From Allochromatium vinosum DSM 180 (lineage in GTDB: Bacteria; Pseudomonadota; Gammaproteobacteria; Chromatiales; Chromatiaceae): DNA of 64,000 nt. The notes beneath the pieces were generated by a model. That model did not search any database, was not told where the DNA came from, and saw nothing but the letters and a program-made list of their open reading frames with translations. Positions 18,232 through 39,800 of this stretch are shown piece after piece. A program made the translations under genes and the position numbers. Every line of letters begins with the position of its first letter. Within the stretch, counting starts at the first letter, position 1. The stretch is taken from contig NC_013851.1 in the NCBI RefSeq assembly GCF_000025485.1, forward strand, positions 2,972,001-3,036,000. Reading direction: 5' to 3'.

Positions 18232-18674
18232 CTGCTGTGCTTGGGCCGAAATGCGATTGAAAGATCCCCTAGATCTTCACTGAATCGTTAGCGGAAATCT
18301 AGTCCGCTTTCCCCGAGGCGTCAACCAAACTTTACGTAAACCTGACTTGACAACCCGGAACAAGCCACCAAAATAGGGGTCAAGCCCCGGATTGGGAGCC
18401 GCTCGACTCTGGCGTTTGCCCGATCCCCTACTCCTTAATAGGGAATAAAGATCTGCTTCCGTTCCAGTCCAGTGAGCCGGCCCGAACCGAGGATGAGAGC
18501 CTTGACGCGCCTGGGTATCGAGCCGAGCCGAATGAACACGAAAACTGGAGGTGACTGTCCATCGCGGCGGAAGATGCGTCCGATGGCCGCCGGGGAATCC
18601 ATCGCGCCACTGGCCGTGGAGACTCCGCGCGCCTGTAGAGTCCTGGGTATGCCCATGTGGCTGTGGAGGGTCTG
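18232..18674. promoter_or_regulatory. Divergent regulatory spacer between bchF and ppsR
   Basis: About 443 bases without a gene. Features seen are an inverted repeat AAGATC-N5-GATCTT at 18261-18277, 30 bases upstream of bchF; a 10-bp palindrome TTTACGTAAA at 18331-18340; and TTGACA near 18347 on the plus strand, a -35-like box without a convincing -10. The first 150 bases are AT-richer than their surroundings, as expected for a promoter. No TGT-N12-ACA PpsR/CrtJ palindrome was found by eye. Confidence 0.45.
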
Positions 18675-20114: not shown

Positions 20115-20264
20115 AACCGTTTTGCCACGCCCGATACGCCTCACCATCGCGCCTGAATCCAACGACCTGTTTGCAGGTTCGGGGGTTCGCGCCTCGCGAT
20201 GTCCAGGCGCCTCGGAGTCGGGCGATGCATGGATCAAACCGCACCCAAGACAGGTTTCCCCCGC

Positions 20265-21179: not shown

Positions 21180-21277
21180 ACCTCGCGGATGCGGGGCGGC
21201 GCTGGATGTTCAGCGAAGCGCGCGCCCTCCATCCTCCCTGTCAATCCTGAACGAACGCTCCAGCAACGAGATTCCCC

Positions 21278-23247: not shown

Positions 23248-25413
23248 ATGCCTTGGAAGACAGAACACAGAGAAAGATCCTTCGCTCACACGTTCGCTTT
23301 CGGTAGCCTCCTGGCGGCAAGCTGCGTCTTATGGATGCCGGCGGCGCAGGCCGATCTGTCCGAACTGGAAGGCGATCACGGCCATCCGTCCCAGACCACC
23401 GGGACACCCTCGACACCACCCGCACAGCCGATCGACGACGGCCTCTCCTGTCCGGGCGATTCGCCCTGTATCGAGACCGCGACCCAACTGACGCTGCGGG
23501 TGTTGCCTCGCCCCTTCTCGAACATTTACCAGGAGCCGGTCGCCGATGGGGGCGCGATCGTCCAGGCCAATCCGCCGGCCTTCCGTCCGCTCTACGCCTT
23601 CGAGCGCCGTGACATCGATCTGCGCGAGGGCGCCGAACCGCGCGGCTGGTATCGCGTCGGGCGGACACGCACCCAGGCCGACGGCTGGATGCAGGCCAAG
23701 GATGTCTTCGAGTGGCGTCAGGCGCTGCTGGTCTCCTTCACCCATCCGGGCGATCCGATCGAGGGGCGTCACCCGGTGCTCATGTTCAAGGATCGCGAGA
23801 CGCTGCAAGCCATCGTCGACGACATGGACATGGCCGCCAGCGCTCAGGCGCTCTACGATGAGATCGATCGCGGCGGAACGCCCGAGGCCGTCATCAGTCT
23901 GGAGCCGAAACGCTTCGTCGACATCACGACCCACTTCTACATGCTGCCGATCCTGCAATGGTCGCAGACCCAGATCGATGGCGACGATGTCCGCCTGCTG
24001 CAACTGGCCTCGGCCGTTCCGGGCGCGCGCGGCGCCGATACCCTGCAAACGCCTGAGTATCGCGAGCAGGCCCAGACCGGACGCGACACCGCCGATCAGG
24101 GCATCGAGGACATCGCCGTCGATATCGTCTTCGTCATCGACACCACGCGCAGCATGCAGCCCTTCATCGATATGACCCGCGACGCGGTGGCCAGGATGGC
24201 GCGCAATTTCAGCGAACGCACCCAGGATCGCTTCCGCTTCGGTCTCGTGACCTATCGTGATTCGCTCGAAGCCGTGCCCGCGCTCGACTATCTCACCCGC
24301 AATCACACGCCGACCCTGGTCACGGCCGAACGCCTGGCCGAGATCCTGGACACCGACGCCAAGGCGACGCGCGTCGGCAGTCTGGGGTACGACGAGGACG
24401 TCTTCGCCGGTGTGGATGCGGCCTTGCGTCAATCCCCCTGGCGCGAGAAGTCGATCAAGTTCGTCATCCTGATCGGTGATGCCAGTTCGCACCTCAAGGG
24501 CGATGCGCACAATTCGACCCGCAAGGACGAGACCGATCTACGGCGCGAATACGACGACGCCAACGTCCATCTGCTGGCGATCCATCTCCAGAACCCCAAG
24601 GCGGCCGAGGATTTTCCGCGCACCCTGCAGCAGTTCGGCACCCTGGCGCGCATCCGCGGCAACCCATCGGAACAGGCGCTGGAACAGGTCGACACGGCTC
24701 AGGAGGACGCCTATCGGCGGCTGGTCGACCGCGTGACCGCCGGCATCAATACCGAACTCGAACGCACGCTGGCGGCCAAGGCTCCGGTCGCGCCGACCTC
24801 TCCGGGTTCAGCGACGTCCCCAACCGTGCCGGGCACGCCTCCAGCCGAGACGCCCGAAGTCTTGAGTTCGGTCTCAGGCATCTGGCAGGCGGCCCTGATC
24901 GAGTACATCGGCCAGTCGGCCAACCCGCCCAAGGACATCGTCGCCTGGTCGCTCGACCGTGACCTGATCAATCCGGCCGACCGCGCCCTGGAAGTCCGGG
25001 TGCTGGTCACACGCGAGCAGTTGAGTTCGCTCGCCCAGGCGCTCGACAGCGTGATGCAGGCACTGATGCGTGCCGAGGTGACGCAGGCGCAGTTCCTCGA
25101 ATCGCTGCAAAGCGTCTCGGGGCAGGCGATGAAGCGCCCGGACGATCTGGCACAGGCCCAGCGTCTGGCCGATACCGGACTGCTGCCGGCCTTCATCCAG
25201 TCCCTGCCCTATCGCAGCGACGTGCTGGCCCTGACCGACGAGATGTTCGCGAGCATGACCGCCGAGCAGCGCGCTCAGTTGGAATGGAGCATCCTGGCCA
25301 AGCTCGAACAGTATCGCGCCATCAACGATCAGGTCGACGCCTGGTTCAGGCTCAACGATACGGATGCCGACAGCGACATGGTCTATCCGCTGCACATCGA
25401 CTATCTGCCCTGA
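23248..25413 (+). CDS. Exported von Willebrand A protein resembling the periplasmic part of PpkA
   Basis: A 721-residue protein with a Sec signal peptide (hydrophobic FGSLLAASCVLWMPAAQA, cut before DLSE). Residues about 65-150 look SH3-like (LRVLPRPFSNIYQEP ... WYRVGRTRTQADGWMQ). A von Willebrand A domain runs from about 290 to 510 with a MIDAS of the form D298-T-T-R-S302, then a Pro/Thr-rich linker and a helical C-terminal domain. The SH3-like plus vWA plan matches the periplasmic half of the type VI secretion kinase PpkA, but the kinase domain and membrane anchor are replaced by a signal peptide. It heads a run of overlapping genes with TagT-, TagS- and TagR-like products, the same order as around ppkA in Pseudomonas aeruginosa. 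The likely role is an envelope sensor or adaptor binding the TagR-like protein, which is inference. MIDAS metal binding is likely since the first Asp and the last Ser are intact. Confidence 0.8.
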   Translation: MPWKTEHRERSFAHTFAFGSLLAASCVLWMPAAQADLSELEGDHGHPSQTTGTPSTPPAQPIDDGLSCPGDSPCIETATQLTLRVLPRPFSNIYQEPVADGGAIVQANPPAFRPLYAFERRDIDLREGAEPRGWYRVGRTRTQADGWMQAKDVFEWRQALLVSFTHPGDPIEGRHPVLMFKDRETLQAIVDDMDMAASAQALYDEIDRGGTPEAVISLEPKRFVDITTHFYMLPILQWSQTQIDGDDVRLLQLASAVPGARGADTLQTPEYREQAQTGRDTADQGIEDIAVDIVFVIDTTRSMQPFIDMTRDAVARMARNFSERTQDRFRFGLVTYRDSLEAVPALDYLTRNHTPTLVTAERLAEILDTDAKATRVGSLGYDEDVFAGVDAALRQSPWREKSIKFVILIGDASSHLKGDAHNSTRKDETDLRREYDDANVHLLAIHLQNPKAAEDFPRTLQQFGTLARIRGNPSEQALEQVDTAQEDAYRRLVDRVTAGINTELERTLAAKAPVAPTSPGSATSPTVPGTPPAETPEVLSSVSGIWQAALIEYIGQSANPPKDIVAWSLDRDLINPADRALEVRVLVTREQLSSLAQALDSVMQALMRAEVTQAQFLESLQSVSGQAMKRPDDLAQAQRLADTGLLPAFIQSLPYRSDVLALTDEMFASMTAEQRAQLEWSILAKLEQYRAINDQVDAWFRLNDTDADSDMVYPLHIDYLP

Positions 25414-25426
25414 GCGGTCGCTGAAG

Positions 25427-26194
25427 ATGGGCGACGGACAGGCACCCATGGTCCGGATGGAGTCGATTGTCAAGCGGCGCGGTCAGGCCGACAGCGGGTT
25501 CGAACTGCGGGTGCCCGAGTTGCGGGTCGACACCGGCGAGGTGGTAGCCCTGATCGGCGAGAGCGGCTGCGGCAAGAGCACGCTGCTGGATCTGATCGCG
25601 CTCATCCTCGGGCCCACCTCGGCGGGGCGGTTCTCGCTGCACCTCGCCGGGGAGGGCGCCGGGCAGGATCTGGCGGCGCTCTGGGCTCGGGGTGACGAAG
25701 GCGCGCTGGCTGCGCTGCGGCGCGAGGCGCTCGGCTATATCCCGCAAACGGGCGGACTGCTCTCGTTTCTGAGCGTGCGCGAGAACATCCGTCTGCCCTG
25801 CCGCATCAAAGGCGTCAGTCTCGCGGATCGCGAACTGGAGACCCTGGCCAAGCGCCTCGGCGTGGCCGAGTGTCTGGATCGCAAGCCGCATGCGCTCTCG
25901 ATCGGACAGCGCCAGCGGGTCGCGATCCTGCGTGCCATCGCCCATGGTCCGCGTCTGCTGCTGGCCGACGAACCCACGGCCGCGCTCGACAAGCCGCGCG
26001 CGCGCGCCGTCCTGGCCGACATGAACGCGCTGGCGCGCCAGCAGCATCTGGCCGTGGTGGTCGTCACCCATGATCTGGATCTGCTGGCCGAGCATGTCGA
26101 CCGGGCCTATACCTTCGATCTCGAACGCCTCTCGGAATCCGAGACGCGCTCGACCTGCCGCGCCCTGGATGACGCGAAGCGAGTCCCGGCATGA
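25427..26194 (+). CDS. tagT: TagT-like ABC transporter ATPase
   Basis: A 255-residue ABC ATPase of the LolD/MacB type. Walker A is G44ESGCGKST, the signature is L157SIGQ (Ile for the usual Gly), Walker B is LLLADEPTAALD, and the switch His is in VVVTHDLDLL. It is paired with the FtsX-like permease that follows with a 4-base overlap. In the type VI regulatory pathway TagT and TagS form an inner-membrane mechanotransmission-type complex that is needed for PpkA activation. I chose ATG 25427, 13 bases after the preceding stop; ATG 25448 is an alternative, and the upstream open frame lies inside the vWA gene. Confidence 0.85.
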   Translation: MGDGQAPMVRMESIVKRRGQADSGFELRVPELRVDTGEVVALIGESGCGKSTLLDLIALILGPTSAGRFSLHLAGEGAGQDLAALWARGDEGALAALRREALGYIPQTGGLLSFLSVRENIRLPCRIKGVSLADRELETLAKRLGVAECLDRKPHALSIGQRQRVAILRAIAHGPRLLLADEPTAALDKPRARAVLADMNALARQQHLAVVVVTHDLDLLAEHVDRAYTFDLERLSESETRSTCRALDDAKRVPA

Positions 26195-28086
26195 AGACAC
26201 ATCGCCCAGGGCGTGCGCGCCTGGTGCCGGCCCTGGCGGCGGCGCATCTGCGTCACGACTGGATCCTCACGCTCTGTCTGGTCATCGCCCTGACCGCCGT
26301 CATCGCACCACTCCTGGTGTTGCTCGGACTCAAGCACGGCACCATCGAGACCCTGCGCGAGCGGCTGGTCGAGGATCCGGTCTATCGCGAACTGCGTCCG
26401 ACCCAGACCCATCCCTATTCCGAGAACTGGTTCGCGCAGGTCGCGGCCTGGCCGGGCGTGGCCTTTCTGACGCCGACCATTCTGCCGCTGTCCTCGGTGG
26501 TGCAGGTGGTGCGGGCTGATGAGACGACGAGCCTGTTCGATCTGATCCCGACGGCGGCCGGCGATCCCTTCTTGCTCGAAAACGGCGTGCCTGTGCCGGG
26601 TGAAGACGAGGTGGTTCTCACTGCCGAGGCGGCGCGTCTCAGCGGAGCGACGGTCGGCGACCGGCTCAACGTCCGGGTCAGCCGCACCCGTGGCGGACGC
26701 TCAGAGAACGTCCAGGCGGAGTTGAAGGTGGTCGGCATCCTGCCGATCGGTGCCGGCACCCTGACCCGGCTCTATGCGCCATTGGCGTTCGTGCTCGACG
26801 TCGAGTCTTATAAGGAAGGCTATGCCACCGCGCGGCGCGGCTGGCCGGGCGATACGCCCGACCCCTATCCCAGTTTCGACGGCGTGGTGCTGCTGCTCGA
26901 CGAGCCGCTCTCGCCGATCGTGCGCACCGGGGCCATCATCCAGACCGGGTTCGCGCGTATCGGGGAAATCACGCGCGATCAGGCCGAGACGCTGCTGGGT
27001 CTGCCGATTCCGCAGCGGCTCCATGCCTACGACCTGAGCACGCCCAACACGCCGATCACCCAATCCAACATCCGCGCCATCCAGACCAAGCTGCGCGGTC
27101 GCGAACCACTACTGCTGCCCTATGTCCGCGACCTCGAACTCATCGGTGCTGATGGTCGGCCGTGGCGTCCGGCCGGGCTTTCAGTGGACGCTGCACAGGC
27201 CGCGCGGCTCGATCTGCCGCCCGTGCCCTGGGGCGGTTTCCAGGCACGCCGTGAGCGGGCCGAGGAACTGACGTCTGTGCTTTGGCCGACAGACGCAGAG
27301 GCAGACACCGGCTCGGACATGGATTCGGACTCCAGCCCGGACGCCGCTCCCCGTCAGGAGACGGATGACGACCTCGCGGTCACGAGTCCGGGACGCGCGG
27401 AGCTGTCCTTCATCCTCCGGTCCCTGGGGCCGAGCCCCCTGTCCGAGCCGCTGGCGCCGATCGAACTGCTCGGCATCCTGCGCACGGCTCGGGATCGGGC
27501 CGTGACCTATGTCGCATCGGGCGGACGCTTCGAGATGCAGCGTGCCGGCTATCGGGGATTCCGGCTCTATGCCGCCGGCCTCGACGATGTGCCGCGACTC
27601 TATCGGCGTCTGCGCGAGCAGGGTCTGGAAGTCGATGCCGCGATCGAAGCCATCGAACGCATCCAGGTGCTCGACGGCGGAGCGACGCGCCTGTTCTGGC
27701 TGATCGCCCTGCTCGGGCTGTGCGGCGGAACGGCGGTGCTGGTCGCCAGTCTCTATGCCGCCGTCGATCGCCTGCGCGCCGAACTCGGCATCATCCGGCT
27801 GCTCGGGCTGTCGCGCGCGCATGTGGCCTTCTTCCCGATCGTCGAGGGACTCATGATCGCGGCCCTGAGTCTGGCGGTCAGCTTCGGCGCCTATGGCGCG
27901 CTCGCCGCCGTCATCAATCGCAGCTTCGCCAACGAGCTGGCGCCGGACGAGCGCTTCTGCGCCCTGCCCGCCTCACTGATTGCGCCCATCGTGCTGACCA
28001 CACTGCTGCTGGCCTGTCTGGCCGCGCTGGTCGCGGCCTGGCGCTCAACCAACATCGATCCGTCGGAGGTCGTCCGTGCCGATTGA
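26191..28086 (+). CDS. tagS: TagS-like FtsX/MacB-type ABC permease
   Basis: A 631-residue inner-membrane permease. One membrane helix near residues 24-46, a large periplasmic domain (about 50-490), then three helices (about 500-520, 552-575 and 596-618) reproduce the MacB/LolE-type four-helix plan. The C-terminal FtsX segment includes ELGIIRLLGLSRAHVAFFPI. The periplasmic part contains an unusual acidic insert rich in Asp/Ser near 370-395. The start overlaps the ATPase gene and the end overlaps the tagR-like gene by 11 bases, so the three are translated together. Such transporters transmit force across the periplasm rather than move small substrates. Confidence 0.85.
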   Translation: MKTHRPGRARLVPALAAAHLRHDWILTLCLVIALTAVIAPLLVLLGLKHGTIETLRERLVEDPVYRELRPTQTHPYSENWFAQVAAWPGVAFLTPTILPLSSVVQVVRADETTSLFDLIPTAAGDPFLLENGVPVPGEDEVVLTAEAARLSGATVGDRLNVRVSRTRGGRSENVQAELKVVGILPIGAGTLTRLYAPLAFVLDVESYKEGYATARRGWPGDTPDPYPSFDGVVLLLDEPLSPIVRTGAIIQTGFARIGEITRDQAETLLGLPIPQRLHAYDLSTPNTPITQSNIRAIQTKLRGREPLLLPYVRDLELIGADGRPWRPAGLSVDAAQAARLDLPPVPWGGFQARRERAEELTSVLWPTDAEADTGSDMDSDSSPDAAPRQETDDDLAVTSPGRAELSFILRSLGPSPLSEPLAPIELLGILRTARDRAVTYVASGGRFEMQRAGYRGFRLYAAGLDDVPRLYRRLREQGLEVDAAIEAIERIQVLDGGATRLFWLIALLGLCGGTAVLVASLYAAVDRLRAELGIIRLLGLSRAHVAFFPIVEGLMIAALSLAVSFGAYGALAAVINRSFANELAPDERFCALPASLIAPIVLTTLLLACLAALVAAWRSTNIDPSEVVRAD

Positions 28087-29776
28087 ACGCCGTTCGATCC
28101 AGGGTTTGCGTCCGCTATTCGGACGGCTCGGGTTCTGTCTCTGCCTGTGCCTGATCGCCGTCCCTGTGCTCGCCGAACCGCCGCCGCGCACACCCGACAA
28201 CCCCAAGCCGGCCGAGGGCGATGTCGTCATCGACCTGCCCAACGCATCCCAACTCGTCTTCCGGCGTCTGGCGGTGCCCGGTCCCGGCTTTTGGGGCGAT
28301 CAGCAGCGCGTCATCCAGATCGGCGATGCCACAGGCGGGATCTTCGAGGGACTGCAACGCACCCAGATCAGCGGTTCTTTCCCAAACGCCGACGGCACCG
28401 GCTGGGAGATCCTGCTGGCCAAATACGAGCTGACGCGCGGTCAATACATCGCCGTCATGGGTCTGGAGCGTCTGCTCGCGGTCAGCGCCGATCCCGAGGA
28501 TCAGAAGATCCCGACCCTGGACGGACGCGCCAAGCGCGAGGCCCTGATGCGTCCCCTGGCCTCGGTCAGCCATCAGGACATCCAGGACTTCATCCGCACG
28601 CTCAATCAGTGGCTGTTCGACCCCGCGCATCCGGAGCACGCCGCCAAGCTGCCGAAATATGACGGTGTCCCCGGCTTCATCCGTCTGCCGACCGAAGAAG
28701 AACTGGAATACGCCACGCGCGGCGGTCAACCGGCCCTCGAAGCCGGCACCTTCGATGATCGCCTGCCCTTCGATGCCGCTCGTATCGACGAGTACGCCTG
28801 GCATCTGGGCAATGCCAAGCATCAGTTGCGCCCGATCGGTCTGCGCCAACCCAATGATCTGGGCCTCTACGATCTCATCGGCAACGCGCAGGAGATGACC
28901 ACGGGCGTCTTTCGTCCCGAGATCTGGCAGGGCAAGCCGGGCGGCGTAGCGGTACGCGGCGGGAGCGTCTCGACACCGCCTGCCGATCTGCGCAGTTCCT
29001 TACGCGCCGAACTCGACGTCTATGCCTGGAAACCCGACGAGGGCCGGATCGAGGAACGGCGCTCCTACAACACGGGCGTGCGTCTGGCGATCGGCTCGAA
29101 CGTGGTTCTGACGACCGCGCAGCGCAAGGCGCTGGAGGATGAATATCTCGCCTACCGTAACGAGACGCGACGCGCCATGCCGGTCGGCCGCACGCTCGAC
29201 AACCTGGTCGCCCAGGCCAGTGTGCAGCTCGGCACCGTCGATCCCATCATCGAACGGCTGATGGCCGAGAACCCGTCACTGCGCGAGCCGCTGCAAACGG
29301 TCCAGGTCTACATGGACCGGGCGCGCGACCGACTCGAACTGGCCCAGCGCGAGAGCGCCCGCAGTCTCGCCCAGGACGCGGCGCGCAACGGCGTCAATCT
29401 CAGCGTCTATCTCTCGCGCCTGGAACGTCTGGCCGCCACCCTGGAATCGGCCCGGAAGCTCGCCGAACTCTCGACCCGCTATCAGGACCAGGTCGAGGCC
29501 GTCGAACGTTCGATCCGGGAGATCGAGACCGCCGCGCGCGAACAGTTGCAGGGCTATCGCGACAAGATCGCCAAGCTCGGCGAGTACGAGCCGGACTATA
29601 TCGCCCACGCCTTCGCGGCACTGGGCGAACGCGAGCTTCCGGTGCGCGAACGCGCGGTGATGGAACTGCTCGCCGTCCATGTCGAGGAGTTCGCCGAACA
29701 GCGCCGGGCCGACCCCGAACGCTGGATGGAGGAGTTCCGTGCACGTTTCAAGGACTTTCAGGACCAGAGCCACTGA
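28076..29776 (+). CDS. tagR: TagR-like exported FGE-sulfatase (SUMF1) domain protein
   Basis: A 566-residue protein with a signal peptide (LGFCLCLCLIAVPVLA, cut before EPPP). A formylglycine-generating-enzyme-like domain spans about residues 50-340: ILLAKYELTRGQYIAVMG, FIRLPTEEELEYATRGG, LGLYDLIGNAQEMTTG and VAVRGGSVSTPPADLRSS are its landmarks. The C-terminal third is a charged coiled coil. The catalytic Cys pair of true FGE enzymes is not seen, so it is a binding rather than oxidising member, as is known for TagR, the periplasmic activator of PpkA. The GTG start overlaps the permease gene by 11 bases. Confidence 0.85.
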   Translation: MPIERRSIQGLRPLFGRLGFCLCLCLIAVPVLAEPPPRTPDNPKPAEGDVVIDLPNASQLVFRRLAVPGPGFWGDQQRVIQIGDATGGIFEGLQRTQISGSFPNADGTGWEILLAKYELTRGQYIAVMGLERLLAVSADPEDQKIPTLDGRAKREALMRPLASVSHQDIQDFIRTLNQWLFDPAHPEHAAKLPKYDGVPGFIRLPTEEELEYATRGGQPALEAGTFDDRLPFDAARIDEYAWHLGNAKHQLRPIGLRQPNDLGLYDLIGNAQEMTTGVFRPEIWQGKPGGVAVRGGSVSTPPADLRSSLRAELDVYAWKPDEGRIEERRSYNTGVRLAIGSNVVLTTAQRKALEDEYLAYRNETRRAMPVGRTLDNLVAQASVQLGTVDPIIERLMAENPSLREPLQTVQVYMDRARDRLELAQRESARSLAQDAARNGVNLSVYLSRLERLAATLESARKLAELSTRYQDQVEAVERSIREIETAAREQLQGYRDKIAKLGEYEPDYIAHAFAALGERELPVRERAVMELLAVHVEEFAEQRRADPERWMEEFRARFKDFQDQSH

Positions 29777-29807
29777 ATCCCGCCCCAAACACCCGAGGAC
29801 ATCGACC

Positions 29808-30467
29808 ATGACCCAATCGACGCCCAGCTCGACCCGCATCCTGCCCTGGCTGCTGAGCGCAGCACTCGTCACGGGGTGCGCCAATATCCAGGACGACCAG
29901 AAACGCACCCAGGCCGAGGGAGCGGCGGCCGGCGCCGTGCTCGGCGCGCTCGTCGGCTATGCCATCGACAGGGAACGCGGCGCGGCCATCGGCGCCCTGA
30001 TCGGCGGCGGCGCCGGTTTCGTCGTCGGCAACGAGATCGCCAAGCGCAAGAAGGCCTATGCCAATACCGAGGATTTTCTGAATGCGCAGATCGCCCGCGT
30101 GGCCGAGTTCAACCGCACCACACTCGCCTACAACGACAAACTGCACCGCGAGATCGCCAGTCTCGATCGTGAATCCAAACGCTTGCAGGCCCAGTACAAA
30201 TCCGGTGCGGTGAAGAAACAGACGCTGGTCAGCAAGCGCAATGCCCTGAATGAGAAGATCGCCGGCAGCAAGAAGCTCGAACAGACCCTGGTCCAGGAAC
30301 AGCAGGTTCAGTCGCAGATCCTGGCCGATGAGCGCAAGACACGCCCGGCGAACGATCCCTATATCCGCAAGCTCGAACACGAGGTCAAGACGCTGCAAGG
30401 CAACATCGATACGCTGCGCAGCAACAACACCCAGTTGGCCCAGATCGATCCGAGGTTGTCGGTATGA
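29808..30467 (+). CDS. Outer-membrane lipoprotein with glycine-zipper and coiled coil (TagQ position)
   Basis: A 219-residue lipoprotein. The lipobox is VTGC with Cys24, and Ala at +2 predicts outer-membrane sorting. Residues about 35-75 form a glycine-zipper segment (GAAAGAVLGALVGYAID ... GAAIGALIGGGAGFVVG), followed by a long Lys/Glu/Gln-rich coiled coil to the end. The start ATG 29808 has GAGGA 8 bases upstream. Its place directly after tagR is that of tagQ, the outer-membrane lipoprotein that anchors TagR in P. aeruginosa; whether it is a true TagQ homologue or a replacement cannot be told by eye. It overlaps the next gene by 4 bases. Confidence 0.75.
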   Translation: MTQSTPSSTRILPWLLSAALVTGCANIQDDQKRTQAEGAAAGAVLGALVGYAIDRERGAAIGALIGGGAGFVVGNEIAKRKKAYANTEDFLNAQIARVAEFNRTTLAYNDKLHREIASLDRESKRLQAQYKSGAVKKQTLVSKRNALNEKIAGSKKLEQTLVQEQQVQSQILADERKTRPANDPYIRKLEHEVKTLQGNIDTLRSNNTQLAQIDPRLSV

Positions 30468-31009
30468 AGCCGTCCATTGGCTGGTCGATGGCACTCATCG
30501 CACTCTGGCTCAGCGGCTGCGCCTCGGTGTCCACCGATCCGCGCGAAGGCGGACTGGCGGGAGGTATCAAGGGTCTGAGCACGGGCGCCTATGACGCGCG
30601 CATCCAGGAGCGCGAGGATCGTCTGGCGGTTCTGCGTCAGGTTCAGGGCGAGCTGGAGACAGAGCGCAATGATCTCGAGTACACCAAGGCCCAGCGTCAA
30701 CGCAAGGTTGCCGCCGAGCGTGCGCGCGTGCGCCGGATGAACCGCGACATCGCCGCTCTGAACCAGCGGGTCGACAGCCTCTCGGCTTCCGCGAACCGCA
30801 ACGATCAGCGGGTCCGGACACTGCGCACGCGGGTTCCGCAGATCCAGAGCCAGTCGGCACGGCTGCAATCGGATCTGGATGCGCTGGAGGGCAGCGGTCT
30901 CGGAGACTCGGAGGCCGATCTGCGGCGCGCCCAGCTCGAACAGCAGCGGGCGTCATTGCAGGCTGAGTACGACCTGCTCAACCAGATGTCGCTGGATCTG
31001 GCCCGGTGA
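30464..31009 (+). CDS. Second coiled-coil outer-membrane lipoprotein
   Basis: A 181-residue lipoprotein with lipobox LSGC (Cys19) and Ala at +2, predicting the outer membrane. The mature protein is almost entirely charged heptad-like coiled coil (for example RIQEREDRLAVLRQVQGELE, then RVDSLSASANRNDQRVRTLR). It lacks the glycine zipper of its neighbour but could form a hetero-coiled-coil with it, as both have long C-terminal helices. It overlaps the preceding gene (ATGA) and the following protease gene (GTGA), placing it firmly in the operon. No named family is recognised. Confidence 0.75.
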   Translation: MKPSIGWSMALIALWLSGCASVSTDPREGGLAGGIKGLSTGAYDARIQEREDRLAVLRQVQGELETERNDLEYTKAQRQRKVAAERARVRRMNRDIAALNQRVDSLSASANRNDQRVRTLRTRVPQIQSQSARLQSDLDALEGSGLGDSEADLRRAQLEQQRASLQAEYDLLNQMSLDLAR

Positions 31010-32130
31010 CAAGGCACCGGACGCGCGCAGTCCGCACACTGGCGTTTCTGGCCGCTTGCGCGTTCGCGCTCACGGCCGGAGGCGCCGGGGTTCCGCTCGA
31101 CGAGATCCGCCAGGTGTTGCGCGAGCAGGCACTGACGGCACCGGCAGAGTCGCGCTTGCGCGACCTGGACGCGACGAATCTCGCCATCGGGTTGCAGGCC
31201 ATCGACCCGGCGGCGCGCTATTTTCCGCGCGCGCTCTATCGCTCGCCGAATCAGGGCCGCGACGCCATGAGCGGCATCGGCGCCGAACTCCTGCCGAGCG
31301 GTGACGATCTCTGGCTGCTGCCGTTCCAGGGTGGCGCGGCGGCGACGGCCGGTCTGACCGATCGCGCGCGACTGCGGACGATCGATGGTCGACCCATCGC
31401 GGGCTTGAGTCGGGATGAGATCGCCCAGCGACTGCGGGGGGCGGAGGGCTCGCAGGTCGTGGTCGGCGTCGAGGAGGCGGATGGTGGCGAGCGGCGTCTG
31501 ACGATCGAACGCCGGTCGTTCCGCCCGCTGGATGTCGAGCTGGTGCAGCCGGGCGCGCATCGCATCCTGCGCGTGCGTGAGTTCGTCGCCGGACTCACCC
31601 GCCCCGCCCTGCTGGCCACGGTGGACTTCATCGAGAACACCGCCACTCACCAACCCGAGCACGCACCGCTCATCCTCGATCTGCGCGACGCGACAGGCGG
31701 CGATCTGTTCGAGGCTCTGGATATCGCCGCGCTCTTTCTGCCCGAGGGCGCGCATCTGGCGACCCTGGTGGCGCGCGGCGGGGTGACGAAGACGCTCCGC
31801 GCTCCTGCGGGTACGGATCTGGAACAGCCGTTGATCCTGCTGATCGGGCCGGGCACGGCCAGCGCCGCCGAGATCCTGGCCGGCATCCTGCGCGACCACG
31901 GGCGCGCCCGGCTCGTCGGCCAAACGACCTACGGCAAGTGCGACTCGCAAACCGACGTGCGTCTGTCCGACGGTTCGGTGCTGCGCTTCACCAACCGGGC
32001 GGTGCGCCTGCCGAGTGGCGAACACTGCTCCGGCGTCGGGGTCGCGCCCGATCTCTCAGTCGATACGGCCACGCTGAATGATCTGTCACGACTGGTCCCG
32101 AGGGCCATTGGAGCTGCTCATGTGCGCTAG
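31006..32130 (+). CDS. Exported S41-family (C-terminal processing type) serine protease
   Basis: A 374-residue protein with an N-terminal signal sequence (LAFLAACAFALTAGGAG). A PDZ-like region lies at about residues 85-165 (LRTIDGRPIAGLSRDEIAQRL), followed by the S41 catalytic fold. The nucleophile is S286 in GTASAAEIL and the general base is K311 in TYGKCDS, 25 residues apart as in tail-specific proteases. The region APLILDLRDATGGDLFEALD matches the strand before the oxyanion site. It probably trims periplasmic or lipoprotein partners of this operon, which is inference. The GTG start overlaps the lipoprotein gene. Confidence 0.85.
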   Translation: MTRHRTRAVRTLAFLAACAFALTAGGAGVPLDEIRQVLREQALTAPAESRLRDLDATNLAIGLQAIDPAARYFPRALYRSPNQGRDAMSGIGAELLPSGDDLWLLPFQGGAAATAGLTDRARLRTIDGRPIAGLSRDEIAQRLRGAEGSQVVVGVEEADGGERRLTIERRSFRPLDVELVQPGAHRILRVREFVAGLTRPALLATVDFIENTATHQPEHAPLILDLRDATGGDLFEALDIAALFLPEGAHLATLVARGGVTKTLRAPAGTDLEQPLILLIGPGTASAAEILAGILRDHGRARLVGQTTYGKCDSQTDVRLSDGSVLRFTNRAVRLPSGEHCSGVGVAPDLSVDTATLNDLSRLVPRAIGAAHVR

Positions 32131-35100
32131 CCGGCACCCATCCCTGTTTTGGCACCTGGTACTGTCAGCGTTCGCTCTGCTGGTGACACTGGCCGTGCCG
32201 GCCCCGGCCTGGTCGGACGATCCGGAAGCCGAGTTTCATGCGCTCGACTACAGGATGCGCGAGTGGGAAAGAATTCGCCAAAGTACCCAACGCATCGTCA
32301 TTCCGCAACACTTCGAGCGGGATCTGGCGCGCTGGGAGCAGTTGTCCGGTCAGCTCGGTTTGAAAAAAGCCAAACAGGCCGGTGATATCGCCGAAGCCGA
32401 GGCGGCCAAGAATGCCCTGTTCGAAGTCATCAAAAGCGAAAAGACCGTCGAACTCGCTCTCAAGAGTGTCGACTTGGCCATCGAATCCGCTCAGCGCGAG
32501 CATGATTTCTATGCCGAGTGGGAGCGCAGCGCCTCCATCGATACGGGCGTCGCGATCACTGGAAACGATGCGGCAAGCGAGCGTGAAAAGCGGCGATTGA
32601 AATTCCAGCAGCTCAAGGACGAAGCCGTTGCGCGACAGCGTGAACTCCGTCAGCACATGGCGCGACTGGAGCAGCAGAAAAGTCACCTGACGCACTTCAA
32701 GTCGAGCGCCAAAGCGCTACTGACGGCCAAGGATATCAGCAGCGATGTCGAGCAGGGCAATTTCTTCGAGGCGGCTGAAAAAGCGATCGATCAGGGCAGC
32801 GCACTGGCCGAGACCTATTATTCCAAAGAAACCTTCGATGCCGTCTCCGAACGGCTGGAGGTCGGCAAGGGTTTTCTCGGCACGGCACAAAAGCTCAAGG
32901 ATGGAAACTATCTCGACGGATCGATCTCGGCACTGGATACGGTCGACAAGCTCCTGACCGACCACTCGTCAAAGCTCAAAAAGGAAACCGAGACACTGCG
33001 ACTGTTCATGGAGTCGGATTTCACGGATCAAGCCCTGAAGAAGCAAGCCTTACAGGTCATCTCCATCGCGAACGACCGCAAGAACCAGATGGAAGCCGCC
33101 ATGGCTTTCAAGAACAAGGTGAAGTTTTCCTCCAAGGCGCTGCGTGAATTCAGGGAGGTCGTCAACGCCGTTCGTCTGATCGATGCCGAGATCCAGCATT
33201 ACCAATCCCTGGCCGCTGTTCCAGGGCGCTCGGAGACGACGACCAAACTCATCTATGGCATGGAAGTCCTGGGCGGCGCCTTCGATCGACTGGCCGACAA
33301 ACTGCCGCCCGGTTTGAAGGAAACGGTTGGAGAATTCCTGCATTTTTATGCCGATGCGCTGCGTCTTGGCAACAGCATCGATCAACTGGTCAGAGATTAT
33401 TTCAAGAACAAGGGCTACTGCGACAACGATCAGGGCGATCATGCTTGGTCGGTTGCAACCAAGCATATTTTGAAAACCTGGCCGAGGGGCGAGCTGTGCC
33501 TCAATTTCGCGCCTGAGTTCGCCCAATCCGGACTGGCCGTCTATGAAAACACGGGAGAAGGAGCCGTAGATCCAATCTATTTCTTCATCCCGAACTGGGG
33601 TGACATTCCGGTCGACCTGACGCGCAGTCAATATGCCCGACTCGTCAAGATCGCGTCAGACTATACGGCCTACGCGCATTATGTCGAATCGAGTTATCGG
33701 CTGACAGCGAGCGATCTCGGGCAGATCATTGCGGCCATCAAGTCCGGGAGCAAGCACTTTACGCTCAATGACGGCTATCTCAGCGACACCACGATCGACA
33801 TCGATGATCTGGCGCGCGATGTCGACGCGCTGATGCATCTCCGATCCGCACTGGGCGAGGAATTGAACGCCGGCAATCATCGCGCCATGATCGATGCCTG
33901 GCTGAAGTATTCACAAGACATCGAATTCTACGATCGACTCTACAGATCCACCTGTGAATTCGATCTGATTCCAGACAACAGCGTCCGGCACCGGCTGTTC
34001 GTCATCTGGCTCAAAGACAACGCCCAATACCGGCGTTTCATCGAACGTCAGCGTTATGCGAATCCCGCGTCCAAGTGCCGAGAATCCGTCGCCGACGACC
34101 CGGATGTTCCGGAGCAAAAGCCGGGGGAAAAGGATGAGGACGATTCGATCATCACGCCCCCTGAACCGGCGGCCAGTTGTTCCTACACCTACTCAGACTG
34201 GGGCGACTGCAACCGCACCACCAAGACCCAGACGCGAACGGTCACAGCCCGCGAGCCGGCCGGCTGCGCGGAGCGCCGGACGCCAACCCTCGAACAGTCC
34301 TGCACTCCCCCGCCGACTGAGGAGGAACTGCGCCACCGCTATTTCAACTGCCTCTGTCGCTGCTCCAGCGGCTGGGCGGGACACATCGGCGTCTGGTACG
34401 ACCCCGAGGGCAAATCCGTTCCCGAATGCGAGAGTTCCGGACCCTGCTTCGGCGGCGCCGGCGCCTTCGGCTGCACCCGCCGGCATTTCTTCGCCGGGCC
34501 GAGCGACTGCGCCAAGGGCTGTTGGGAAGGCTCCTGGGGCAAGGGCACCTATGACCCGGCCAAGGCCGATGCGTTGCGCAAAGGCGAGAACCGCCAATAC
34601 AAGAAACCCCTGAGCGTCCAGATCGAGGCGTCCAAGAACCCGGCCGATTTCGGCGACATCGTCGACCTGACCGCCAAGACCTCGGAAGGCTCGGGCGGCT
34701 ACAGCTGGAGCTGGAGCGGCTGTGCCGAAGACGCCGCAAAAGACCGAGCCAAGGTGCCCTTCACCCAATCATGCCGACCCTGCACGGCCAATGTCACGGT
34801 CACGGATCAGGACGGCGATACGGCCTCCGACTCGCTGCCGGTGCAATGTACCGCGCTCAGCGTCAAGCTGACCAAGGAGCGTCCGGCCGAAAACACCATC
34901 CCGGTCGGCGACAAGGCGGCGCTGCTCGCCGAGGTGTTCTCGGGCGATCAGCCGGCCGGCGGTCGCTTCGCCTATTACTGGGAGCCGAACCCCGACGTCC
35001 AGTACGGCGGTGATCCGAAGAACCCGAGCTACGAGACCAGCGGCGGCGCGCAATCGCGCAACACGGCGCTGTTCCGTCAGACCGGCGCCACCCCGGTCTG

Positions 35101-36850
35101 GGTCACGGTGCTCAAGCAGGTCGGCGAGACCAAGGTCACAGTGGGCGAGTCCGAACAGATCCTGATCGACGTGATCAGCCCGCAACTCAGCCTCAAGGCC
35201 GACAAGACCAGCCCGCTGATCGGCGAGACGGTGGTACTCACCGTCGAGGAAACGCCGAAGATGAGCGACGATCTGGTCAGCTTCTGGTGGGAATACAGCG
35301 GCGAGGCCAGCAACCCAGGTGTCCACCCCAATACGCCCAACAGCCGCGCCTGGTCGTACAAGCCCAGGAACGACAAGCCCGTCACCATCACCGTGCATGC
35401 CAAATCGAAGGACAGCGGCGAGGAACTCGACAGCGCCTCTCTCACCCTCACCGCACGACGCATCCAGGTCAGCGTCAGCGGACCCAAGATCGCCGGTCCG
35501 GCGCCCATGATCTGGAAGCCGGGAGTCGGTCTGGTCGCCGCCGAACGTCAGGTCGCCGAGCAACAGCGGGTCGAGTTCGCCGCCACGCTCAACCCGTCCG
35601 TCGACAATCCGCGCTACCAGTGGCGGATCGAGCCGTCCGGCTGTTCGATCCATTCACCGAGCTCGCGCGACACCGGCGTCACCTGCGCCGGCACCGGCCG
35701 CTACAGTCTCAGCGTGACCGTAAAGAACGCCGACGGTGCCGAGCTGGGCATCGGCGCCGGTCAGCTCAGTGTCAGCGTCTCGCAGGCCTCCGTGGACTCC
35801 GGTCGGAAGACGGCCAAGGCGATCGAGGAAACACTCGCGCAGGCCCGCGAACAGGCCGGGCGCGGACGTCTGGACGAGGCGCTGTCGCTCGCCAAGCAGG
35901 CGCTCGCACTCGATCCCGCCTATGCGCCGACCAAGCAGTATGTCGCCAGTGTCGAGAAGGCCAAATCCAGTCTCGATCGCGACATCGCCGCCATCGAACA
36001 ACTCATCGGGCAGGGCAAGCTGGACGCGGCACGCTCACGGCTCGACACGCGCGCGAAGGCGTTCCCCGAATATCCCCCGCTCATTGAAACCCGGAAGCGA
36101 TTGGAACACGCGCTCGCGTCCTCCCGTAAGGAGGGTGGCAATACGGCGGCCAAGGGAGGCGACAAAACCTTCGACAACGGCAACATCTACGGTGTCCAGA
36201 ACGGACCGACCTCACCCACGACCTTCGAGCTGAAGCAACCGCGCATTCTGACACTGATCCAGAACTACCACTGGAACTCGGGTCGTGGCGCGACACCCGG
36301 CACCCTCGCCCTGCGCGACGCCCAGGGTCGCCAATACGGCCCCTGGCCGGCCGAGGGCAGTCCGGGGCAGGGCGGCGTGCCCAATGCCTACTGGACGGCG
36401 CGTCCCATGATCCGGTTGCCGGCCGGCGTCTACACGGTCATCGACTCAGATCCGGCGTCCTGGGCGCAGAACGTGCAATCGGACGGACGCGGCTTCACGC
36501 GCATCGAGACCCAGCCGCCCGATGCGACGACGAACGCCATGCCATCAGGATTCATCGGTGAATGGGACACCAACTGGGGACCAATGCGGCTGGAGCCTGA
36601 TCCGGACTCACCGAATGCCATCCGAGGAACCTACACGCATGACAGCGGGCGTATCTCCGGTCGACTCTCCGAGGATGGACGCCGCCTCACAGGCACATGG
36701 TCCGAGGCGCCCTCCTATGCGCCGCCCCGAGACGCCGGACGGCTGACTTTACAGCTTGCCGATGATCAGGGCTCCTTCACCGGAATCTGGGGCTATGGTG
36801 ACCAGGACATGACCGGCGAGTGGTCTGGAACACGCCGGCACGAACCATGA
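32120..36850 (+). CDS. Large mosaic exported protein: coiled coil, thrombospondin-1-like, Ig-like and TPR-like domains
   Basis: A 1576-residue exported protein. A signal peptide (LVLSAFALLVTLAVPAPAWS) is followed by a long charged helical region to about residue 440 and an alpha-rich domain to about 665. A thrombospondin type-1-like unit begins at C687 (YSDWGDCNRTTKTQTRTV ... C), then a Cys-rich segment to about 815. Three or more Ig/PKD-like beta domains cover about 830-1225, a TPR-like helical pair about 1229-1325 (GRLDEALSLAKQALALDP), a carbohydrate-binding-like beta domain about 1350-1460 (IYGVQNGPTSPTTFELKQP), and a C-terminal beta-barrel-like repeat (FIGEWDTNWGPMRLEPDP). Many Cys imply disulfides outside the cytoplasm. 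I chose ATG 32120, 8 bases after GGAG and overlapping the protease stop. No family covers the whole chain; it is probably a surface or periplasmic adhesin or scaffold, which is inference. Confidence 0.75.
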   Translation: MCASRHPSLFWHLVLSAFALLVTLAVPAPAWSDDPEAEFHALDYRMREWERIRQSTQRIVIPQHFERDLARWEQLSGQLGLKKAKQAGDIAEAEAAKNALFEVIKSEKTVELALKSVDLAIESAQREHDFYAEWERSASIDTGVAITGNDAASEREKRRLKFQQLKDEAVARQRELRQHMARLEQQKSHLTHFKSSAKALLTAKDISSDVEQGNFFEAAEKAIDQGSALAETYYSKETFDAVSERLEVGKGFLGTAQKLKDGNYLDGSISALDTVDKLLTDHSSKLKKETETLRLFMESDFTDQALKKQALQVISIANDRKNQMEAAMAFKNKVKFSSKALREFREVVNAVRLIDAEIQHYQSLAAVPGRSETTTKLIYGMEVLGGAFDRLADKLPPGLKETVGEFLHFYADALRLGNSIDQLVRDYFKNKGYCDNDQGDHAWSVATKHILKTWPRGELCLNFAPEFAQSGLAVYENTGEGAVDPIYFFIPNWGDIPVDLTRSQYARLVKIASDYTAYAHYVESSYRLTASDLGQIIAAIKSGSKHFTLNDGYLSDTTIDIDDLARDVDALMHLRSALGEELNAGNHRAMIDAWLKYSQDIEFYDRLYRSTCEFDLIPDNSVRHRLFVIWLKDNAQYRRFIERQRYANPASKCRESVADDPDVPEQKPGEKDEDDSIITPPEPAASCSYTYSDWGDCNRTTKTQTRTVTAREPAGCAERRTPTLEQSCTPPPTEEELRHRYFNCLCRCSSGWAGHIGVWYDPEGKSVPECESSGPCFGGAGAFGCTRRHFFAGPSDCAKGCWEGSWGKGTYDPAKADALRKGENRQYKKPLSVQIEASKNPADFGDIVDLTAKTSEGSGGYSWSWSGCAEDAAKDRAKVPFTQSCRPCTANVTVTDQDGDTASDSLPVQCTALSVKLTKERPAENTIPVGDKAALLAEVFSGDQPAGGRFAYYWEPNPDVQYGGDPKNPSYETSGGAQSRNTALFRQTGATPVWVTVLKQVGETKVTVGESEQILIDVISPQLSLKADKTSPLIGETVVLTVEETPKMSDDLVSFWWEYSGEASNPGVHPNTPNSRAWSYKPRNDKPVTITVHAKSKDSGEELDSASLTLTARRIQVSVSGPKIAGPAPMIWKPGVGLVAAERQVAEQQRVEFAATLNPSVDNPRYQWRIEPSGCSIHSPSSRDTGVTCAGTGRYSLSVTVKNADGAELGIGAGQLSVSVSQASVDSGRKTAKAIEETLAQAREQAGRGRLDEALSLAKQALALDPAYAPTKQYVASVEKAKSSLDRDIAAIEQLIGQGKLDAARSRLDTRAKAFPEYPPLIETRKRLEHALASSRKEGGNTAAKGGDKTFDNGNIYGVQNGPTSPTTFELKQPRILTLIQNYHWNSGRGATPGTLALRDAQGRQYGPWPAEGSPGQGGVPNAYWTARPMIRLPAGVYTVIDSDPASWAQNVQSDGRGFTRIETQPPDATTNAMPSGFIGEWDTNWGPMRLEPDPDSPNAIRGTYTHDSGRISGRLSEDGRRLTGTWSEAPSYAPPRDAGRLTLQLADDQGSFTGIWGYGDQDMTGEWSGTRRHEP

Positions 36851-36884: not shown

Positions 36885-39800
36885 ATGCGCGATCGAAGAC
36901 ACAACGACTGGCGCTGGCTGTCCGCCGGACTGCTGCTCCTCCTGGCTCAGGGCGGCGTCTCGGCCCGCGAGACCTTCGAGGTCATGGAGGTCGAGGGCCG
37001 GGTCGAACAGGCGACGGGGCCGGCCGAATTGCAGCAGCTCGATGCCGAGAACCGGGTCACGGTCCGCGCCCTGATCGGATTCGGCCGTCTGCCCGAACCG
37101 CTCAGGAAACTGGTGCTCGAACTGCGGGGACTGGGTGTCGATGCCCTGGGCGCGGGTGCCAACGAGATCCGCGACTTCATCGCCCAGGCCGAAGCCGGGA
37201 CGCTGAAAGCGGACCCGCAACAGTTGCAGGCGCTGCTGGCCCTGCTCGAACACCGCGACTATCTTGACTGGACACCGCTGGCCCCAGGCGCCACGGTCGA
37301 ACTCGACGCGCGTGACTGGATTCGCGGCGATGGACGCGCCGTGCTGCAAGCGGCGTCCGGCCAGCGCCAGACGCTCGCGGCCGAGGAACGCCCGAGCCAG
37401 GCCGGCTCCACCGGCGCCGGCCCGGATCGGGAGCCGATCGCACCCGCGACCCCGATCGACGAAACAGTCGCTACCGTCCCGACCGAGCGGATCTGGACGA
37501 GCGACGGTCCGGGGATGCGTGTCTTCGACCATCGCCGCCCGGATCGCGGACTGTCGCTGGAGACGCTGGAAGCGGCCAGCCTCGCCGCCCTGCCCGATGG
37601 CGGCTATGTCGCGGCCGGCAGCGTCCAGGGGCCGGGGGGACGCGAGATTTGGGCCGCGCGCTTCGATGCCAATCAGGATCTGCTGTGGTCGCGCGCACTC
37701 GGCGGCGCCTTCGATCTGCACGTCACGGCCGCGACCGCGCTGGGCGACGAGGGTGTTCTGATCGGCGGCTCGCTCAACGAGAAACAGGCCGGGTTCCTGA
37801 TCGCCCTGGACGCTCAGGGCGAACCGCGCTGGACACAGGTGCTGGGCGGGTCGACAGACACCCCTGCCGAGGTGCCGCTGGCACTGGCCACCGATGCCGC
37901 CGGCAACGCGCTCATGGCCGGCGAGACCCTTGCCGCCGATCGTCCACCCCAGGGCTTCGCGGCGCTCATCGCCGCCGATGGTCAGCCGGGATGGCGCCTC
38001 GACCTGCCTGCGACCGCCGGTGTGCGATCCGTCATCCTCACCGACACCGGCTGGTCGATCGCCGGCGCATCGGCCGGCACGTCCGGCGCACCCTGGGCAG
38101 CCGGTCTCGACCCGACGGGACATCTGACCTGGGAACGGACTTATGCCGATCTCGCGGCGCGTGGCGAACCCGTCCTGGCCGGTCTGGACGATGGCGGAAT
38201 CGCGCTGGCGGTTCGAAGCGCCGAGGGCCATGGCGATCAGCTCTGGCTGCGCCGGCTTTCTCCCGACGGCGAGCCGCTGGAGACCCGGCGGCTGAGTCTG
38301 GCGTTCGGCGAGCAGGACGGTCTCGACACCCTGACGCGCCTGACGCGCGACGCCGAAGGTGCGTTGTGGCTCGCCGGCATGACCCAGGGACAGGACGCCT
38401 GGCTCGCGCGCCTGTCGAGCACGGGCGAGGTGCTCTGGAGCGGCCGCTATGGCCGCGCGGCCCTGGATCGCTTCACTGATCTGCATGTCCGGCCCGATGG
38501 TCTGATCGCCGTCGGCTACACCCAATCCGAGGACACCGACGCCCGTGGCCTGTGGGTCGTGACGCTCGACGCCACGGGTCAGCCGCGCCCCGCTCCCGAA
38601 TACTCACCGGCGGCGCGCGACCTGATCGCCCGTTTCGAGTCCAACCTTGCATCGCTGGACGATGACGTGCGCCTCGGCGGCGCACCGCTGATCAGCCAAC
38701 AGGCGGATGGCGGGTTGCGCTTCGCCCTGCCCTTCCTGCGCATCGACGATGGGCCATCCGACTCCAATGAATCGACCTCGCTGGATCTGAACTGGCTGCG
38801 TGTCGACTTGACCCCTGGGGCTGTTCCGAACACCTGGCAGGCCACCATCGACTGGCCCGAGACCCTGACACTGCGCAACGGCGACGGCAACGAGATCGGT
38901 ACGGTCCGCACCGCCGGACATCGCCTGGAACTGGACTGGCCGGCCCCCGATGCCCTGCCCACACGCCTGGATTTCACCCTCGAAGATCTCCAGGTGCACA
39001 TCGACGGTCAGGCCCGACTCCAGCCCATCCATCAGGCCCTCGGCCTCCCGCAGGGTCCGGACAGCCTGGGAAGCGATGACACCGACCTGGGGCTGATGAC
39101 ACTGGGTGCGCTGCATCTGGCGATCACCCCGGAATCGGCGCCTGAAGCCGCGCGCACGACAACCTCACAGTCCATGGAACTGGCCGATCTGCGCATCCAG
39201 AGCCGCTCGGGAACCGACACCGTGCAGCTCGGCGGTCTGCGCGTCAGCGCCGACTATCGTGACCTCGATCTGGCCGCGCTCACCACCGGCTATGGCTCAC
39301 TGCTCGAACTGATCGAGTCCGATACCGAGACACCGGACATCGAGACGCTGCGCCAGACGATCGAACGCCTGCTCCAGGCCAGCGGCCAGGTCGAGACCTC
39401 CGTCGTCATGACCGATTTCGCCGCGAATCTGCCCAGTGAGGACATCGACTACCGGATCGCTGAATTCAGCGTCTCGGCCCAGGGCGGCCCGGCCGACGCG
39501 GCCGGTCGGTTGTGGAATCTGCGGACCGGCTATGGGTTGCGCGGCCTGACGATGAAAGAGGACGGGCAGGACAACAGGATCGATGCCTTCAGTGTCGATC
39601 TCGCCATCGACCGGCTCGCGCTGGCCGCGATCCTGGATGTCGCGCTGGCTCAGGCGCTCGAGCAGCCGCCCGCCGAGGCCAGTCTGGCACAGGTGCTCGG
39701 GCAGCCGGTCGCGGGCGCGAAGCTGGGCTTCGCGATCGACGCCCTGCACATTGCCACACCGGATGAGCCGCCGGTGAATGTCGATGCCATGCACTTTGCG

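Follow-up and report, generated by a model that had tools for sequence, protein, structure and literature searches.

A kinase-less vWA-TagTSR operon in Allochromatium vinosum and its relation to the PpkA-TagQRST module of type VI secretion

The genome of Allochromatium vinosum DSM 180 contains five contiguous genes that follow, on one strand, the order ppkA-tagT-tagS-tagR-tagQ of PpkA-TagQRST, the threonine-phosphorylation trigger of the H1-type type VI secretion system (T6SS) of Pseudomonas. They lie at positions 23248-30467 of the 64,000-nucleotide stretch that was analysed (the window; C1:2972001-3036000), which is part of a 3,526,903-bp contig in a three-contig genome of 3,669,074 bases (G000). 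A first-pass annotation of the window had proposed that they form a free-standing envelope-sensing system related to PpkA-TagQRST, in which the first protein, with a von Willebrand factor A (vWA) domain, is exported and has no kinase. Here we investigate these genes, the two that follow them, and their relatives. The seven genes are:

23248..25413, + strand: exported kinase-less vWA protein, 721 aa, homologous to the whole periplasmic part of PpkA
25427..26194, + strand: TagT-like ABC ATPase with Walker A motif GESGCGKS and signature LSIGQ
26191..28086, + strand: TagS-like permease, 631 aa, with a LolC/E- and MacB-like fold and an insert of ~220 aa
28076..29776, + strand: TagR-like protein of the FGE family, with a signal peptide judged by eye
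29808..30467, + strand: glycine-zipper/coiled-coil lipoprotein in the TagQ position, with lipobox VTGC and weak similarity to TagQ
30464..31009, + strand: second coiled-coil lipoprotein (CC family) with lipobox LSGC
31006..32130, + strand: S41 C-terminal processing protease, with Ser and Lys present and a weak PDZ match

Pfam families matched the vWA protein (VWA, 29 bits, cut-off 23.8, residues 292-450), TagT (ABC_tran, 93 bits), TagS (FtsX, 28.8 bits, cut-off 25.5), the TagR-like protein (FGE-sulfatase, 72 bits) and the first lipoprotein (Gly-zipper_Omp, 34.6 bits). The start of TagT was placed at ~25427-25457, and that of the first lipoprotein was moved from 29679 to ~29808, which makes its lipobox N-terminal. 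There are 4-nucleotide overlaps of stop and start between TagT and TagS, between the first lipoprotein and the CC gene, and between the CC and S41 genes. Because the CC and S41 starts each overlap the preceding stop, it is plausible that translation is coupled as far as the S41 gene. The operon probably extends beyond 30467 to take in the CC lipoprotein and S41, and the unit that needs explanation is the seven genes at ~23248-32130.

Homology to the PpkA-TagQRST module

Hidden Markov model profiles were built solely from six PpkA loci, L101-L106 (six rows for vWA, TagS and TagR, five for TagT and TagQ). L101 is a T6SS ppkA locus encoding IcmF/TssM, TagF, PP2C, a 992-aa kinase-vWA protein, TagT, TagS, TagR and TagQ; the other five were assigned as PpkA loci by their gene order and the similarity of their kinase part to that of L101. 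The window has the order called in five of the six, L102 being without a called TagT or TagQ. Against these profiles the vWA protein scored 243 bits, TagT 196, TagS 222 (in two pieces around its insert) and TagR 97. The homology and gene order claimed in the first-pass annotation are borne out, Pfam and the PpkA-locus profiles agreeing, and the match of the vWA protein to the periplasmic domains of PpkA, on which the proposal had been made to depend, covers nearly the full profile (23-624 of 628).

Pairwise comparison with L101-L103 gave 27-29% identity between the vWA protein and PpkA over 665-691 aa, the alignment beginning past the transmembrane (TM) segment of PpkA and running to its last residue. 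Identity was 44% for TagT (two of the three loci), 27-28% for TagR and 35-38% for TagS in two pieces, with window residues ~230-453 unaligned. For the proposed outer-membrane lipoprotein, the lipobox, glycine zipper and TagQ position stand, but the start had to be corrected and the likeness to TagQ is weak. The TagQ profile scored 17 bits, covering the glycine zipper and part of the coiled coil, NCBIfam VI_TagQ gave 10.9 bits (cut-off 300), and BLAST found no match to TagQ of L101-L103. VI_TagQ was also set aside as a marker of T6SS loci, a single genome of 369 exceeding its cut-off on a contig that starts at TagR.

The vWA protein has, as had been claimed, neither kinase nor anchor. No Pkinase family of Pfam matched it at E<=1, so a fused kinase cannot supply its output by phosphorylation, and a simple hydropathy scan found no TM-like segment with KD19 of at least 1.6; in L101 PpkA, by contrast, KD19 is 2.39 at residue 325. 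Its signal peptide was judged by eye. D298, S302 and D411, which we take to be residues of the metal ion-dependent adhesion site (MIDAS) type, are invariant across 54 aligned rows, as is the C-terminal P721. All 50 listed Foldseek matches of its AlphaFold model (predicted local distance difference test score, pLDDT, 81) fall on the vWA domain, and they include integrin I-like domains. The part first described as SH3-like corresponds solely to AlphaFold beta strands at residues 84-164, with no Pfam SH3 match. A sequence search of the PDB gave no match for the vWA protein and weak ones for TagR (best E 1.9e-5) and TagS (best E 0.0097). The nearest named homologue of the vWA protein, 96% identical, is from Allochromatium humboldtianum.

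The insert of the window TagS, ~220 aa at about residues 230-453, is not present in the T6SS TagS proteins compared. The TagS model (pLDDT 88) has its best fold matches in LolC/E and MacB. TM segments lie at about 25-43, 501-519, 545-563 and 596-614, with a large periplasmic domain between the first and second; a fifth stretch, at residues 89-107, is of borderline hydropathy and is modelled as strand and loop. The only Cys residues of the window TagR are at 21, 23 and 25, and since none follows residue 25 it has no FGE catalytic Cys.

Distribution and descent of the kinase-less form

Is the operon accompanied by a T6SS elsewhere in the genome? Neither TssB (T6SS_VipA) nor TssC (VipB) had a match in G000, other T6SS families not having been searched; E. 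coli matched among the controls in both searches. The first-pass annotation had noted no T6SS gene in the window, and for these two markers this now holds genome-wide. TssB was found in none of the 8 genomes of the genus. Pkinase matches occur at three places in G000, none of them at the single vWA match. A duplicate of a complete tss/ppkA locus elsewhere is ruled out, since there is no TssB/TssC match and only one vWA match. The module is almost certainly independent of T6SS and of a fused kinase.

Across the order, the vWA protein matched 136 of 210 genomes (119 at E<=1e-20) and TssB 80 of 204 (79 over the cut-off). Both were present in 51 genomes, vWA only in 68, TssB only in 29 and neither in 56 (Fisher p 0.25), in samples that differ by at least 6 genomes, with unlisted genomes counted as lacking a match and drafts able to miss genes. 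The vWA distribution in the order does not track TssB. Two matches in the order, in G053 and G159, lie in open frames of more than 1000 aa; the vWA gene called in G053 (L075) encodes 687 aa and follows a separate kinase gene.

In a sample of the phylum, a 29-row vWA profile matched 49 of 398 genomes, 34 in the vWA domain only and 15 over the full length. Six of the full-length matches are in frames of 1017-1189 aa, all from family f160, and nine, including the window, are in frames of 661-761 aa; one of these nine, G370, is likewise from f160. Loci were then assembled from the order (40 chosen), the phylum search (14) and named relatives (the best 80 of 370, of which 72 gave a called vWA gene). 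The named relatives had been found with a mixed alignment weighted to those with a long TagS, and the resulting 115 deduplicated loci, window included, are a sample biased by locus choice. Six of them have a fused kinase, two a fused N-terminal AAA-type part and 107 neither. The kinase-less form is thus common in the samples examined and not peculiar to the window genome. In one of the AAA-type loci, L161:8840-11947 from a Methylomonas metagenome-assembled genome, an AAA_22 ATPase is fused to the vWA module in the kinase's place; L167, the other, was assigned to the same kind on its length and position. L045 and L046 have tandem vWA genes ahead of a single TagT-TagS-TagR set.

TagS was called in 104 loci and is long (at least 560 aa) in 33 and short in 71. 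The neighbourhood counts that follow are of related loci, not independent events, and some stretches end early. The 33 long-TagS loci contain TagT in 33, TagR in 32, a TagQ-like gene in 33, CC in 31, S41 in 21 and C6 in none. C6 is a gene before vWA whose product has one TM-like segment and weak Sel1-like similarity. In the 71 short-TagS loci the counts are TagT 67, TagR 37, TagQ-like 25, CC 13, C6 54 and S41 0. A lipobox pattern was found in 23 of the 33 TagQ-like and 23 of the 31 CC proteins of the long-TagS loci, and wrong starts may explain some of the proteins without it. The window is part of a lineage of its own, marked by the enlarged TagS, in which a second lipoprotein is usual and a linked S41 frequent.

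SrfB- or SrfC-like genes are present in 20 of the 115 loci. In L055, L058, L075, L169 and L183 the gene immediately before the kinase-less vWA gene encodes a separate kinase; L077, which matched just the Sel1-like part, and L154, whose kinase is not adjacent, were dropped from this set. L055:14273-15919 is in a genome of the window's own genus, G105, whose module is not of the window's type but of the short-TagS one, with a gene for a separate Ser/Thr kinase next to it. In the srf-linked loci L169:7996-9894 and L183:2969-5008 a kinase-TM-C6-like gene directly precedes the kinase-less vWA gene.

A quick vWA tree of 89 of the 115 loci, from which short fragments, near-duplicates and half of one group were left out, placed the window in a 32-row branch (support 100) that took in every one of the 26 long-TagS rows along with six more. 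T6SS PpkA (6 rows, support 100) was sister to L169 and L183 (support 100), in the opposite half of the tree. A 79-row TagS tree joined the 26 long-TagS rows and L147 in one branch (support 100) and PpkA with L169 and L183 (support 98). In a careful vWA tree of 52 rows (37 of the 89 dropped), PpkA again grouped with L169 and L183 (support 100/100), on a long branch (0.8), and forcing PpkA together with the long-TagS group cost 679 log-likelihood units (p-AU 1e-64). The L101 PpkA kinase is 51-54% identical to the L169 and L183 kinases and 27-38% to six other non-PpkA kinases. These identities were used in place of a 14-row kinase-domain tree, in which resolution was poor, branches were very long and L169 and L183 stayed apart.

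T6SS PpkA therefore forms a single clade, and the window falls in the opposite half of the unrooted tree. This makes the first-pass view of a PpkA module that had exchanged its kinase for a signal peptide look unlikely, the kinase-less form being common among the loci sampled (9 of 15 full-length matches; 107 of 115 loci). L169 and L183, the nearest relatives of T6SS PpkA in the trees, are candidates for the pre-fusion state, and fused PpkA may have arisen from an arrangement like theirs. The trees are unrooted, PpkA is sampled from one family only and the direction rests on parsimony. A bolder and rather speculative extension is that kinase-less vWA-TagTSR is an older, general ATP-driven trans-envelope switch, controlling a periplasmic S41 here and made into a T6SS trigger late, by fusion of a neighbouring kinase-TM gene to the vWA gene. 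A single envelope sensor would then serve different outputs in different lineages: kinase, AAA ATPase, Srf proteins or protease. Since no root was inferred, "older" is something that we infer.

Output of the module and its alternatives

What would such a module do without a kinase? We lean towards a module that works independently of a kinase and belongs, with PpkA-TagQRST, to a broad family of trans-envelope modules, S41 being its likeliest effector. TagT would hydrolyse ATP, and TagS, a permease of the LolC/MacB/FtsX type, would relay a conformational change to the periplasm. TagR, of FGE fold without catalytic cysteines, and the MIDAS-bearing vWA protein may form a periplasmic complex bridging towards the two outer-membrane lipoproteins, which would couple the state of the envelope to a periplasmic effector. 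TagST would in this way drive TagR and the soluble vWA protein, tied to the two lipoproteins, to gate S41, as in LbcA-CtpA. The parts, their linkage and their motifs are observed; the coupling to S41 is what we infer from them.

That S41 might be the output had been suggested at first pass, and it gains as a candidate from its linkage (21 of 33 long-TagS loci vs 0 of 71 short-TagS loci), which is lineage-specific in the set examined. The catalytic Ser and Lys are kept in 21 of 21 linked proteins by alignment, a count used in place of a simple pattern for the serine that caught 6 of 21. The gap between CC and S41 is at most 60 nucleotides in 15 of the 21. The window S41 matches PDZ_6 at 26.1 bits, just under the cut-off of 27. 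G000 has three S41 matches, and that of the module is distinct from the other two (31% identity, and 35% over ~100 residues). Among 14 genomes searched, the linked S41 stood far above the rest in G099 (92%), G002 (40%) and G084 (42%).

Several observations weigh against this reading. S41 is not obligatory: 12 of the 33 long-TagS loci have none in reach, and only L123 and L124 of these are near contig ends. Seven genomes with a long TagS and no linked S41 (G007, G017, G029, G074, G076, G109 and G148) have only the S41 kinds common to all 14 genomes (26-32%, or 33-36% over ~100 residues). The linked S41 of G117 is just 26% identical to that of the window, and a module-specific S41 subfamily was dropped as an idea, the linked proteins not all being close to each other; for this reason we lowered our estimate, and S41 proteolysis as an output of the module is a tentative proposal. 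The long-TagS form is found in 4 of the 8 genomes of the genus and is therefore dispensable. The similarity to TagQ is weak, and TagR proteins of other long-TagS loci have 0-4 mature Cys. In P. aeruginosa, according to passages of PMC6657622, recruitment of TagR, the activator of the phosphorylation pathway, depends on TagQ, an ABC complex is made up of TagS and TagT, and deletion of tagQ or tagR abolishes T6SS baseplate assembly while deletion of tagS or tagT just lowers it; from these passages, the ABC pair may be accessory.

Could TagST instead be a true transporter, LolCDE- or MacB-like, moving lipoproteins or a large exported neighbour with vWA and TagR as chaperones or adaptors? The best TagS fold matches are indeed LolC/E and MacB, and two lipoproteins and large exported proteins are encoded nearby. 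We consider this unlikely: the eight genes scanned gave no MacA, TolC or LolA family match, P. aeruginosa TagST acts in T6SS activation (in passages of PMC6657622), and FtsEX, in excerpts from published work, shows that the fold serves signalling too. Signalling or mechanotransmission is, on this evidence, probable over transport.

The following alternatives are not mutually exclusive with one another or with transport, and we rate both as less likely still. In one, signalling is in trans, the soluble vWA protein being a binding partner of a Ser/Thr kinase whose gene lies elsewhere in the genome. The five loci with a separate upstream kinase offer a model for this, and G000 has its three Pkinase matches, but none of these coincides with the vWA match, C6-type anchors are found in 0 of 33 long-TagS loci, and the L005 kinase is only 25-27% identical to the PpkA and L169 kinases. 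In the other, the vWA protein serves assembly of a surface or extracellular matrix, binding large proteins that S41 processes. These would be the products of the two genes downstream of S41:

32183..36850, + strand: large Cys-rich protein, a variable neighbour, with an N-terminal hydrophobic segment and weak PKD and TPR matches
36885..40373, + strand: 1162-aa protein with an N-terminal domain at residues 41-155, named VRAL here

The first product has 1555 aa with a Cys-rich stretch, and local G+C content is lower (0.567 at 32001-34000). Matrix assembly is consistent with the integrin I-like matches of the vWA model and with large neighbours in the window, L038, L040, L126, L128 and L146, but such neighbours are not kept in most loci. 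The VRAL domain (~115 aa, no Pfam family at E<=0.01) occurs, in the protein set searched, solely in long-TagS loci (11 proteins in 9 of the fetched loci, including the window). In the order it was found in 5 of 204 genomes, all of the window's genus, and four of these carry the long-TagS module. The fifth, G103, has a VRAL gene (partial domain match) and no vWA match, which counts both against matrix assembly and against the reading that we favour; VRAL is thus linked to close relatives of the module but independent of it. Loss of the module in G103 is possible. There the VRAL gene (L195:8828-11992) adjoins a gene that resembles, by eye, one for a TnpB-type transposon protein.

A decaying remnant of a lost T6SS locus, which the absence of TssB/TssC matches and the patchy distribution in the genus might suggest, was rejected as very improbable, since the module forms its own lineage apart from T6SS PpkA (joining them being the arrangement rejected above), its reading frames and conserved motifs are intact, and kinase-less operons are kept in many species.

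Elsewhere in the window, a gene pair at 45120-47440 (- strand) resembles EgtD/EgtB by eye and is the source of the FGE-family matches at C1:3018163-3018867. Upstream, 18657-22468 presumably holds photosynthesis genes, resembling ppsR, bchG and bchP by eye.

Comparison with known systems

TagQRST is treated as a T6SS trigger in nearly all the literature surveyed. The vWA domain of PpkA was reported in 2005 (passages of PMC1262709). Passages of PMC3608642 describe host-associated Deltaproteobacteria, one of which had T6SS machinery genes, where tagQ, ppkA and, in most cases, tagR, tagS and tagT adjoin srfB/srfC; the vWA gene is named there ppkA, a kinase. Genes like ppkA/tagQRST near srfABC are described for Xenorhabdus (passages of PMC6950479), and species without TagQRST can use PpkA constitutively (passages of PMC12607579). 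Among the papers listed in our search, mostly ones open without subscription, we found no description of the kinase-less form, of the lineage with linked S41 or of the relatives that have a separate kinase. Judging from the trees, the trigger is probably a single clade within a large family, most of whose other sampled members have no fused kinase, and any account of the core function therefore has to do without PpkA, Fha or T6SS. Regulated proteolysis is an alternative output suggested by the long-TagS lineage, and srf-linked loci with a separate kinase gene are a plausible intermediate in the origin of PpkA.

LbcA-CtpA shares with the window an S41 protease beside a lipoprotein, of the outer membrane in LbcA-CtpA and putatively so in the window; excerpts from published work have P. 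aeruginosa CtpA activated by the lipoprotein LbcA. It is not known to have an ABC or vWA part. Type VII ABC systems (FtsEX-EnvC, MacAB, LolCDE, YbbAP) likewise pair an ATPase with a permease that has a large periplasmic domain between the first TM segment and the last three. Excerpts from published work describe them as turning ATP into periplasmic motion, and FtsEX as a precedent for signalling by an ABC system of this fold. The window's partner set of TagR, vWA, two lipoproteins and S41 is not known from those systems. The srfB/srfC-linked operons (SrfB PF07520, Virul_Fac PF10139) share the kinase-less vWA-TagT-TagS-TagR core. The window has a long TagS, S41 and no C6 anchor at the locus, and membership in the srf group is ruled out by 0 Virul_Fac (SrfC) matches in G000, PF07520 (SrfB) not having been searched genome-wide. 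From PpkA-TagQRST it differs in having no fused kinase or TM segment and no TssB/TssC match in its genome, and in its ~220-aa TagS insert, CC lipoprotein and S41, TagQ being weakly alike. What the two share is the gene order, the full-length periplasmic vWA module and the homology of TagT, TagS and TagR.

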